Positions 59,281-62,172 of a stretch of 64,000 nt of DNA are shown piece after piece. This DNA is from Rhodohalobacter mucosus (lineage in GTDB: Bacteria; Bacteroidota; Rhodothermia; Balneolales; Balneolaceae): contig NZ_QGGB01000008.1 of the NCBI RefSeq assembly GCF_003150675.1, positions 186,001 to 250,000 of the forward strand, given 5' to 3'. The position numbers and the translations under genes were made by a program. How positions within the stretch are numbered: the first letter of the stretch is position 1; every line of letters starts with the position of its first letter. The notes beneath the pieces were generated by a model. The model saw only the letters and a list, made by a program, of their open reading frames with translations. It had not been told where the DNA came from and did no database searches.

Positions 59281-60057
59281 ATGAGCTTTGACGATTTTGA
59301 TGACGGCCCCGTTTGGAATGAACATCAATGGGAGTCTCACCTGAACGAGATCGAGAAACGTAGCGAGCAACTCCGTCGATTTATTACTTCAGATCCCAAG
59401 GGAAATAAGCCGCGCTGGATAACCCTTCTTCAGGAAAGCCTGGATGAACTGGATGCTGTTGAAGCATTTATAGAAGAAGAGCTGCTTCTTGATGAAGCCT
59501 ATTTTCCAGAGGACGAAGACGATTGGGAAGATGAGGACGACTGGGATGACGATGATTTCTTTTTTCAGGATGACACATTTCCCTTCACGGATGGCGAAGA
59601 CGATGATGATGACGATTTTGACTATGGCGAAGAGTGGAAAGAACTCAGTGAAGACTTTACGCTCTCCGATTACGGCTCTATTGAAAACCTGATCGTATAT
59701 CAGAACGCCCGTGCGCTGGCCGTGGATGTGCTTAAATGGGCCGAGACCATACCCGATAATCTGCAGACTCGCCAGGTTCATGAATTTGTAAGCAATGTGC
59801 TGAAAATTACGGCTAAACTGGCCGGCGGATACTCCTTCGGTTTTGAACAGGATGTGCTGGGCGGGAACATTGCCTACACGAAAAAAGCGCTCTACAGTGC
59901 AAATGAGGCGCTCGATTACCTCCAAAATATGAAACGGGAACCGTTCATCGTTAAAGCCGTTTACTCACGGTTTCACGGAAGGCTATTCGACATACGCAAC
60001 GATATTGGCATATATGTTCAGGAGCTGAGAGAACGATTCAACCTGGGAATGGAATAA
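59281..60057 (+). CDS. hypothetical acidic protein
   Basis: This 258-residue cytoplasmic protein is of unknown family. Residues about 65-125 are extremely acidic: runs of Asp and Glu broken by Trp and Phe (EDEDDWEDEDDWDDDDFFF near residue 80). The C-terminal half (about 135-258) is helical and more ordinary, with YQNARALAVDVLKWAE and VYSRFHGRLFDIRNDIG. The acidic stretch could mimic nucleic acid or bind metal, but no function can be assigned. It is the last gene before tRNA-Asp. Confidence 0.65.
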   Translation: MSFDDFDDGPVWNEHQWESHLNEIEKRSEQLRRFITSDPKGNKPRWITLLQESLDELDAVEAFIEEELLLDEAYFPEDEDDWEDEDDWDDDDFFFQDDTFPFTDGEDDDDDDFDYGEEWKELSEDFTLSDYGSIENLIVYQNARALAVDVLKWAETIPDNLQTRQVHEFVSNVLKITAKLAGGYSFGFEQDVLGGNIAYTKKALYSANEALDYLQNMKREPFIVKAVYSRFHGRLFDIRNDIGIYVQELRERFNLGME

Positions 60058-60080: not shown

Positions 60081-60110
60081 TTGACTTCCTGTTGCAAGGC
60101 TCACTATATT
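60081..60110 (+). promoter_or_regulatory. sigma-70-like promoter of tRNA-Asp
   Basis: TTGACT (60081-60086) and TATATT (60105-60110) are separated by 18 bases and end 18 bases before the tRNA. This is the best promoter match in the window. Confidence 0.65.
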
Positions 60111-60128: not shown

Positions 60129-60202
60129 GGTCCGGTAGTTCAGCTGGTTAGAACGCCTGCCTGTCACGCAGGAGGTCGCGAGTTCGAATCTCGTCCGGAT
60201 CG
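60129..60202 (+). tRNA. tRNA-Asp (anticodon GTC)
   Basis: This is a complete 74-base cloverleaf. The acceptor arms GGTCCGG and CCGGATC pair with one G-U, the anticodon loop is CTGTCAC with GTC, the anticodon stem is CCTGC/GCAGG, and the T arm GTTCGAATC is standard. The 3' CCA is not encoded. The gene is directly followed by its own terminator and then by a tandem array derived in part from its own 3' half. Confidence 0.96.
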
Positions 60203-60210
60203 CAGATAAA

Positions 60211-60239
60211 AGGTTGCTAGTAATAGCAGCCTTTTTTTG
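60211..60239 (+). terminator. terminator of tRNA-Asp
   Basis: AGGTTGCT pairs with AGCAGCCT (one wobble) and is followed by seven Ts. It ends the tRNA transcript before the tandem array starts. Confidence 0.85.
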
Positions 60240-60246
60240 TTTTTAT

Positions 60247-60782
60247 GAGACCTGTCATGCAGGAGGCCGTCCCGAGGCTTCGGGAAATCTCGTCCGGATC
60301 GCTTAATGAAGCCATACATCGTTTGATGGGTGGCTTTTTCTATTTCCGAGACCTGTCATGAAGGAGGCCGTCCCGAGACTTCGGGAAATCTCGTCCGGAT
60401 CGCTTAATGAAGCCATACATCGTTTGATGGGTGGCTTTTTCTATTTCTGAGACCTGTCATACAGGAGGCCGTCCCGAGGCTTCGGGAAATCTCGTCCGGA
60501 TCGCTTATCAAAAGCCGCTCATCGTTTGATGGGTGGCTTTTTCTATTTCTGAGACCTGTCATACAGGAGGCCGTCCCGAGGCTTCGGGAAATCTCGTCCG
60601 GATCGCTTAATGAAGCCATTCATCATTTGATGGATGGCTTTTTCTATTTTGAGACCTGTCATGCAGGAGGCCGTCCCGAGGCTTCGGGAAATCTCGTCCG
60701 GATCGCTTAATGAAGCCATTCATCATTTGATGGGTGGCTTTTTCTATTTCTGAGACCTGTCATGCAGAAGGTCGTCCCGAGG
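60247..60782 (+). repeat. tandem array of five full and one truncated ~101-bp units containing tRNA-Asp 3'-half sequence plus terminator hairpin
   Basis: Units begin at 60247, 60348, 60449, 60551, 60651 and 60752; lengths are 101, 101, 102, 100 and 101, and the sixth stops at about 60782. Each has three parts. First is CCTGTCAT(G/A)CAGGAGGCCG, close to the tRNA anticodon arm. Second is a hairpin CCCGAGGCTTCGGG followed by AATCTCGTCCGGATCGC, identical to the last 17 bases of tRNA-Asp plus one base. Third is a terminator-like hairpin AGCCA...TGGCT with Ts. Bases differ among units mostly in loops or as wobble/compensating pairs in the third hairpin, which suggests constraint. The acceptor 5' strand and D arm are absent, so the units cannot make tRNA. 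Confidence 0.9.
60310..60340 (+). terminator. terminator-like hairpin of array unit 1 (repeated in units 2-5)
   Basis: AGCCATACATC pairs with GATGGGTGGCT around a GTTT loop and is followed by five Ts. The same element ends each full unit. Unit 3 (AGCCGCTCATC) and unit 4 (AGCCATTCATC with GATGGATGGCT) keep the stem with changed bases, unit 4 being the most complete. Confidence 0.7.
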
Positions 60783-60961
60783 ATTTGATTTGGTTACAAG
60801 CTCATAATTAATCTAGATTTTCATCACCTACTGTTACACGTAACCATTTTAAGTCATTTCTTATCATCAAATGATAAACGAAGTTTGTTAAAAATAGTCA
60901 TTCTTCCTTGATAATTGGGGTGATATGAAGAATATTAACATATAAAGAAAACCACAAAGCA
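60783..60961. other. A/T-rich leader of accessory patch with two small inverted repeats
   Basis: This sequence begins abruptly where the sixth array unit breaks off. It contains GTTAC-AC-GTAAC (60833-60844) and a perfect TTATCAT-CAA-ATGATAA hairpin or palindrome (60861-60877), which could be operators for the gene at 60962. No coding frame was seen. Confidence 0.45.
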
Positions 60962-61237
60962 ATGGCTACTGCGGAAACTGCTGAAGATTTACTTAATAGA
61001 TTACCAGAGTCACTCGGAGAAAACAATGAGTATATTCGACGGATAATGGTTCTAGATAATTTTGTTGTTATCGAGTATTCGAAACGTCAACTTTTCATAC
61101 GACATATTCATCCAAATTCATTTTCTAGTGAAGAAGTTGAAGAAAATTTATTATTTGATGTTATAGCACCAACTGTTGCAGAAGCTGTGACGAAAATGGA
61201 ATTAAAAGTTAAATCATTTGAAGATTCAGTTGATTGA
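60962..61237 (+). CDS. hypothetical 91-residue protein
   Basis: This is a small acidic cytoplasmic protein of unknown family. It contains a short beta-like core (NFVVIEYSKRQLFIRHIH) and a helical acidic C-terminus. Codon choice is A/T-rich (TTA, AAT, ATA, AAA) and unlike the chromosome genes on either side, so it was probably acquired. It is 50 bases before the DUF2971 gene on the same strand and may be its partner. Confidence 0.6.
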   Translation: MATAETAEDLLNRLPESLGENNEYIRRIMVLDNFVVIEYSKRQLFIRHIHPNSFSSEEVEENLLFDVIAPTVAEAVTKMELKVKSFEDSVD

Positions 61238-61287: not shown

Positions 61288-62172
61288 ATGATAACACGAT
61301 CACAAACTCTCAATGAAAGATTAAAAATACCTTCTCCTTCTCATTTATTTCACTATACGGACTCTACAGGTCTTATCGGTATTTTGGATTCTGAAGAAAT
61401 TTGGGCCACAAATATTAGGTTTTTAAATGATATTAATGAAGTAATTGAAGCCACTGAAGCAGCGCAAAAAATTTTACTCGAGCTGCATAAATCTTCAAAT
61501 AATCATAAAGAAAAGTCACTATTCAAGTCGATGCTTGATAACATAAATGAAGTGGCTAGCCATACCTATGTATGTTCTTTTTCTGAAGACGACGACTCTT
61601 TATCACAATGGAGGGCATACTGTCCTCCTTCCGGTGGTGGTTATGCTTTGGGCATACCAAGCCTCCAACTAAGTGCTCAGGCAAAAGAGCAAGGTTGGAT
61701 GTTTATTAAATGTATTTATGATGACGTCACTAAGAATCAAGTAGTCAAGGAAATTATAGATTCAATGCTTATTGATTTTAAAGATGGCTTAAAGCAAAAT
61801 ATATCTTTAAAGGAGCAAGATGAATTAACTGAAAAAGTTGCGTCCAATTTTCAGTTAAACTTATTAGCTATAAGCGGGGCAATCAAAAACAAGGCCTTTA
61901 AAATCGAATCTGAATGGAGGTTAATTTCACCATTATCCACAGATGAGAAGAAGATAAGGTTTCGTAAAGGTAAAAGTGGCATTATTCCATATTGTACTTT
62001 TAAGTTGCTTTCAAATCTGAATCCCAAAACTAAAAACCTAATCAAATTAGTTGCTGGGCCGACACCTCAAAATGACTCAGAATCGAGACAAGCTGCTAGG
62101 TACATTTTGAGTAGATATTTAGATAACTCAACCGGAGAGTCACTATCTAAAATTCCTTATAAAGGATGGTAA
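61288..62172 (+). CDS. DUF2971 family protein
   Basis: This 294-residue protein has the DUF2971 signature: HLFHYTDSTGLIGILDSEEIWATNIRFLNDINE at residues about 20-52, then CSFSEDDDSLSQWRAYCPPSGGGYALGI (about 106-133) and a late ESEWRLISP. The family is widespread on mobile or variable chromosome regions and its activity is unknown. The N-terminal HYT...WATN...LND pattern is reminiscent of ADP-ribosyl-transferase-like folds, but that is only an impression. Base composition is A/T-rich like the small gene before it. Both lie between the tRNA-Asp array and glutathione peroxidase, which suggests a recently acquired accessory pair. Confidence 0.8.
   Translation: MITRSQTLNERLKIPSPSHLFHYTDSTGLIGILDSEEIWATNIRFLNDINEVIEATEAAQKILLELHKSSNNHKEKSLFKSMLDNINEVASHTYVCSFSEDDDSLSQWRAYCPPSGGGYALGIPSLQLSAQAKEQGWMFIKCIYDDVTKNQVVKEIIDSMLIDFKDGLKQNISLKEQDELTEKVASNFQLNLLAISGAIKNKAFKIESEWRLISPLSTDEKKIRFRKGKSGIIPYCTFKLLSNLNPKTKNLIKLVAGPTPQNDSESRQAARYILSRYLDNSTGESLSKIPYKGW

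Follow-up and report, generated by a model that had tools for sequence, protein, structure and literature searches.

The tandem array behind the tRNA-Asp gene of Rhodohalobacter mucosus, located in a window of 64,000 nucleotides of contig NZ_QGGB01000008.1, very probably belongs to a family of elements in which a small GIY-YIG nuclease is linked to a tRNA gene. From comparison with related genomes we conclude that it was built from a module of such an element that carries no open reading frame (ORF), and on balance we favour the full proposal, its mechanism included, that the array is the nuclease-less relic of an element targeting tRNA genes. In its complete form, as found in relatives, the element comprises an intact tRNA gene with its terminator, an ORF encoding a GIY-YIG protein of 80–95 residues, a displaced partial copy of the same tRNA, here termed tRNA', one loop of which contains a G+C hairpin, and a copy of the terminator, and the part consisting of ORF, tRNA' and terminator can repeat in tandem. 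The array in the window shares with it a tRNA' that matches the gene in isotype, carries a G+C hairpin in a loop and is followed by a terminator, but the tRNA is not accompanied by an ORF for a nuclease of 80–95 residues with intact GIY-YIG residues, and we thus term it a relic or derivative rather than a full member of the family. Neither a nuclease ORF nor a remnant of it is left within the array, which counts against its assignment to the element.

The array consists of five full units and a truncated sixth, which follow the tRNA-Asp gene and its terminator (Table 1). TRF detects a 101-bp unit in 5.4 copies (60234–60782, 93% matches), and the full units measure 101, 101, 102, 100 and 101 bp. 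Each unit joins a piece of tRNA-Asp, extending from the anticodon arm to the 3' end, to an intrinsic terminator. The stretch AATCTCGTCCGGATCGC that closes each tRNA part equals positions 59–75 of tRNA-Asp, and the T-loop CGAGTTCG is swapped for a palindrome of the form TCCCGA-nnnn-TCGGGA. The description given in the initial annotation, of a tandem array whose units derive from the neighbouring tRNA-Asp and are not tRNAs but remodelled tRNA pieces joined to a terminator hairpin, is thus borne out. None of the five units is identical to another, which argues against a duplication introduced during assembly. The array is the sole copy of the 101-bp unit in the 3.9-Mb genome.

Table 1. Features of the tRNA-Asp locus, in window coordinates.
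Feature	Position	Strand	Remark
Promoter-like site of tRNA-Asp (TTGACT, 18, TATATT)	60081..60110	+	no other good site of this kind precedes the array
Intact tRNA-Asp (GTC), from which the repeats derive	60129..60203	+	
Intrinsic terminator of tRNA-Asp	60208..60235	+	
Unit 1	60247..60347	+	tRNA-Asp' (from anticodon arm), T-loop hairpin 60270–60285, tRNA 3' end, terminator
Unit 2	60348..60448	+	hairpin 60371–60386
Unit 3	60449..60550	+	hairpin 60472–60487, terminator 60510–60541
Unit 4	60551..60650	+	hairpin 60574–60589, terminator 60612–60641
Unit 5	60651..60751	+	hairpin 60674–60689, terminator 60712–60741
Unit 6	60752..60782	+	truncated within the hairpin
Array-side stretch in place of the GIY-YIG nuclease ORF of syntenic G024 (L035 111–383)	60266..60882	+	homology to L035 breaks, resumes at 60883
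Flanking ORF, function unassigned	60962..61237	+	homologue 3' of the nuclease in G024 (79% identity)
Flanking DUF2971 gene	61288..62172	+	syntenic in G024 (74% identity)

Several other assignments of the locus were rejected. No ORF of at least 80 amino acids is listed within the array, which is thus not regarded as protein-coding, and integration of the integrase type was discarded as no integrase gene was found among the flanking ORFs scanned. PADLOC returned only weak matches, to the DUF2971 protein and to the nuclease, and a defence island was set aside. The acidic protein encoded 5' of tRNA-Asp (59281–60057) shows a weak match below the cut-off to proteins of 23S rRNA intervening sequences (E 4e-4).

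The initial annotation had interpreted the units as a family of small structured RNAs, a reading that we regard as highly improbable for functional products of the array. It draws on the stable hairpins and terminators present in every unit and on the precedent of rttR, an annotated small RNA from a comparable array in E. coli, but a scan for sites of the sigma-70 type detected no promoter within the units, while a terminator is located before the array and a further one inside each unit. The predicted fold of the unit is ordinary (z -1.03, with 31 of 200 shuffles as good), the real tRNA gene is the only match in Rfam at the gathering threshold, and the rtT RNA family has no match in the window even in a permissive Rfam search. 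As for the pair changes described in the last hairpin, the variants themselves are present but do not amount to covariation: in an alignment whose five sequences afford low power, no pair changes on both sides relative to the commonest type, and a score as high as the one obtained was seen in 396 of 500 shuffles. The unit is also not kept as a free gene in relatives. A covariance model of it, as the initial annotation had suggested for a search of related genomes, matches the 3' halves of real tRNA-Asp genes and, in other genera, tRNA-Gly' modules located 14–43 bp behind nuclease ORFs. This position behind GIY-YIG ORFs identifies the unit as part of a DNA element rather than as a free RNA gene.

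The connection to a nuclease became apparent in a search of 59 relatives with the tRNA and the first unit, where many tRNA-Asp loci contain extra pieces of tRNA-Asp, located 5' or 3' of the gene and bearing a palindrome in one of their loops, and several of them are followed by a small GIY-YIG (PF01541) ORF. In G024, the closest relative that shares the upstream gene (88%) and whose locus was reconstructed from an overlap of two pieces on two contigs, tRNA-Asp and its terminator are followed by a GIY-YIG ORF at +68 and by homologues of the two flanking ORFs of the window starting at 60962 and 61288. The alignment of both loci spans the tRNA and the terminator, breaks and resumes at 60883, with 617 bp containing the array in the window standing in place of the nuclease ORF in the relative. 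We infer that the ORF was lost at the window locus rather than never present. Within the genus, a nuclease is found at tRNA-Asp in about half of the genomes with enough sequence and lacking in the other half. The genomes of the relatives are in part drafts and several contigs end just 3' of tRNA-Asp, so that arrays are undercounted. Such ends, close behind or inside the locus, were observed for the tRNA-Asp contigs of G003, G006, G010, G013, G017, G019, G040 and G052, and they are expected if unresolved repeats follow.

A counterpart of the array that carries an ORF is found in G336, a genome in one contig from outside the window's class, where five units of 315 bp with 99% identity stand behind tRNA-Asp. 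Each of these contains the ORF, followed by AGGAGGTCG, the palindrome TCCCGACTAGTCGGGA, AGTCTCGTC and a terminator, whereas the unit of the window, which is devoid of an ORF, reads AGGAGGCCG, palindrome TCCCGAGGCTTCGGGA, AATCTCGTC and terminator. In both, the palindrome has the same arms and resides at the same position of the tRNA. These features are difficult to reconcile with ordinary tandem duplication at a tRNA gene by slippage or unequal crossing-over, without participation of a nuclease. Such duplication would not account for the presence of a nuclease at the locus of the syntenic relative, for the recurrence of the module between nuclease ORFs of other genera or for the hairpins at identical tRNA positions in distant genomes, and we thus consider it improbable. 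Duplication of this kind is the usual assumption for the repeats behind tyrTV in E. coli (NC_000913), where three copies at 178-bp spacing, each holding the last 19 bases of the tRNA, follow the gene. As in that case, the window contains tandem repeats directly behind a tRNA gene that include its 3' end. The E. coli locus contains no GIY-YIG gene and encodes Tpr, which illustrates that arrays can exist without such a nuclease now, and to our knowledge no swap of a loop for a hairpin has been described there; the window, in turn, has no match to the rtT family. Arrays now lacking a nuclease are also found elsewhere in the genome of R. mucosus, where tRNA 3' ends with T-loop palindromes follow Ala-GGC (L159, 175 bp), Arg-ACG (L157, 121 bp), Glu (L148, 198 bp) and Leu-TAA (L099), and these, together with the array at Asp, are compatible with duplication alone.

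The same genome illustrates how closely the nucleases are associated with tRNAs, as all of its small GIY-YIG genes but one are located at a tRNA (Gly, Leu-GAG, two Met and Ser-TGA). At the tRNA-Gly locus, four 101-bp units precede the real tRNA and its terminator, behind which two nuclease genes are separated by a palindrome-bearing tRNA' with the same terminator. For 14 of the 40 tRNA genes, as counted on loci fetched from this genome, self-derived fragments are present at a distance of up to 800 bp, compared to 11 of 372 comparisons in a cross-isotype control. A heptamer tandem repeat, GGACGAT, was observed 5' of the tRNA-Met array (L096 1710–1780, G000 C5). In 19 genomes of the genus we identified 79 small GIY-YIG ORFs. 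The tree calculated from 75 of these 79 sequences divides into clades of 58 and 17 members, and its basis of 94 alignment columns counts against the interpretation as elements. A tRNA gene or fragment adjoins 56 of 58 nucleases in the large clade but only 1 of 17 in the other (Fisher p 3e-13), and in the large clade both are always on the same strand. The ORF mostly starts 40–80 bp 3' of the tRNA, except for the Ser-TGA type, where it is located just before it. When mapped on the large clade, the isotypes require 17 changes, close to the possible minimum of 13 and far below the mean of 51.5 obtained after shuffling. The sequences thus document a linkage of nucleases to tRNA genes in isotype-specific clades, although vertical descent at the individual tRNA loci would produce such clades as well, which counts against the assignment as an element. 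In the smaller clade, whose members are not at tRNAs, similar dispersed repeats flank both sides in 12 of 17 loci (L088, L113, L115, L136, L175, L177, L194, L199, L200, L202, L203 and L207, from R. mucosus and other genomes of the genus), compared to 10 of 228 in a cross-genome control, which suggests the existence of intergenic repeats linked to nucleases around this clade.

With 80–95 residues, the PF01541 proteins of the relatives are small, and Y5, Y16, G18, R26, H30 and E62 are invariant among them. The AF2 model (pLDDT 94) assigns the entire protein to a bare catalytic GIY-YIG domain and contains no separate domain for binding a long DNA target. Among solved structures, UPF0213 proteins and SLX1 resemble it most closely, I-TevI being more remote, and sequence-specific cutting of a tRNA gene is thus not obvious for such a protein, which counts against the proposed element. 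Sequence comparison reveals purifying selection on the nuclease, with dN/dS values between genomes of 0.06–0.2 for most pairs, and a relaxed constraint on most second copies in tandem, where values within one genome are 0.57–0.84 for three of four pairs and 0.18 for the fourth.

The bare domain favours structure-guided recognition over recognition of a long site, and it lends weight to an alternative that we regard as unlikely, where a small SLX1-like nuclease would act on hairpins or cruciforms instead of sequence. Such an enzyme would open tRNA genes and other inverted repeats at their arms in the single-stranded state, upon which repair would add short palindromes and neighbouring DNA. In function, this would parallel REP elements and the RAYT transposase that acts on them. 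The properties of the inserted hairpins are in line with this possibility: among 82 inserts in tRNA' copies, the arms reach a length of 6 or more in 52, and their mean is 5.8 compared to 3.3 after shuffling. A recount comprises 87 inserts, which are placed in the D, anticodon or T/variable-loop regions, 31 of them showing the TCCCGA..TCGGGA form. The TCCCGA palindrome occurs 41 times in the genome and never in a reversed control, with 17 sites at tRNA loci and 24 elsewhere, latter of which, like the repeats on both sides of the unlinked nucleases, agree with an activity directed at hairpins. The isotype-specific clades speak for recognition of sequence instead, or for plain descent at one locus. 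The location of the inserts relates to the side of the gene, with those on the T-side found almost exclusively in downstream tRNA' copies (31 to 1), those on the D-side in upstream copies (19 to 1) and anticodon inserts in both. Away from tRNAs, the palindromes are often found 3' of a stretch resembling CTGCTGCGTGCAGTTCGCAG, among short tandem repeats such as GCCTGAA (G000 C7:13560, C5:181127, C6:396964, C10:264042 and others; L101, L105, L107, L108).

Returning to the tRNA-gene-targeting element that we favour, its nuclease would break DNA at or near the tRNA gene, and repair or recombination would insert a cassette carrying a replacement for one tRNA half, so that the tRNA would remain whole while the old half would be displaced outward as tRNA'. 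Repeated rounds in combination with unequal recombination might then generate arrays, in which copies farther from the tRNA would decay, and the raised dN/dS of three of the four tandem pairs is expected if this is the case. In the window, the nuclease ORF would have been lost, with only the short module of tRNA', hairpin and terminator being multiplied. The hairpins in the displaced copies may be destroyed cutting sites, or the enzyme may itself act on hairpins. The intact tRNA gene ought to be a target too, and its escape counts against the proposed mechanism. The frequent placement of hairpins at the anticodon loop, and upstream arrays such as that at tRNA-Gly that repeat a promoter-like stretch, would also fit a nuclease that cuts the tRNA itself, with the hairpin-bearing tRNA' expressed as uncleavable decoy or immunity RNA. 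We consider this very unlikely, since entire arms are missing from most tRNA' copies, which are unable to adopt a tRNA fold, no promoter-like site was detected in the downstream units of the window and the nearest relatives of known activity act on DNA.

The elements extend well beyond the genus. A profile of twelve tRNA-linked nucleases finds a match in 192 of 296 genomes of the phylum, and a tRNA is located beside the nuclease in 25 of the best 30 loci. Genomes in a single contig contain tandem units that include the ORF at Leu-CAG (450 bp, 5.3 copies), Asp, Ser-TGA and Ser-GCT, and near-identical GIY-YIG units at tRNA genes, up to five in tandem, were observed in L242 (G280), L243 (G336), L244 (G180) and L245–L248. 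Such near-identical copies in one-contig genomes are a sign of recent amplification. With a single Asp-type protein as query, three named loci were obtained, in a Balneolaceae MAG, in Galbibacter pacificus at tRNA-Pro and in a Calditrichota MAG at tRNA-Asn, and the family thus reaches into Flavobacteriaceae and a Calditrichota MAG. In Galbibacter pacificus, two short 3' units without ORF are located behind tRNA-Pro. The Asp-type nuclease has no phage match and a single plasmid match, which counts against its interpretation as a mobile element, and an origin from phages or plasmids was rejected on these grounds.

The nearest known cases are the phage endonuclease SegB and the tyrT repeats of E. 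coli. SegB of T6, a GIY-YIG homing endonuclease encoded beside tRNA genes, drives the tandem amplification of a tRNA segment (PMC13096335). Its similarity to the system described here concerns the free-standing GIY-YIG gene beside tRNA genes of many isotypes and the amplification of the segment that contains them, as found in T4 and T6, whereas SegB is borne by a phage and amplifies whole tRNA genes (PMC13096335), in contrast to the chromosomal tRNA fragments with inserted hairpins found here. The relatives' proteins share the GIY-YIG catalytic domain with its conserved residues but not a separate DNA-binding domain, and with their 80–95 residues, isotype-specific clades, lack of a phage match and putative cutting activity they differ from SegB. 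REP elements are short dispersed palindromes possibly mobilised in trans by RAYT, a Y1 transposase. Dispersed palindromes are likewise present in the genome of R. mucosus, but here the enzyme is of the GIY-YIG type and the palindromes reside inside tRNA-derived copies. The palindromic elements of Rickettsia also form hairpins and are inserted at positions that RNA structure can accommodate, though they are larger, located in genes and without linked nuclease, whereas the inserts described here are found in non-functional tRNA copies. Finally, integrative elements at tRNA genes replace the end of the tRNA and displace the old end by means of tyrosine recombinases, whereas the unit described here has a size of 0.1–0.45 kb and contains either a GIY-YIG ORF or none.

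None of the open-access papers searched describes tRNA-linked GIY-YIG arrays on bacterial chromosomes, a weak indication of novelty. Bacteroidota and related phyla are rich in small GIY-YIG genes, which are functionally unnamed there, and the lasting partnership of a nuclease with one isotype provides a likely target and makes the tandem repeats behind tRNA genes, an oddity known for a long time, amenable to experiment. If these nucleases spread by cutting tRNA genes, they would be among the smallest protein-coding selfish elements, attacking an essential gene without breaking it and creating repeats at places where draft assemblies break. As a wider proposal, which we put forward tentatively and judge to fall somewhat short of probable, the phylum would harbour tiny selfish elements with minimal SLX1-like GIY-YIG nucleases, each devoted to one tRNA gene, that restore the invaded tRNA, stamp hairpins into loops of the displaced halves and reshape about one third of the tRNA loci of a bacterium. 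If true, they would constitute a third kind of system, next to intron-borne homing endonucleases and REP/RAYT, and would account for the tandem tRNA-derived arrays found in bacteria.
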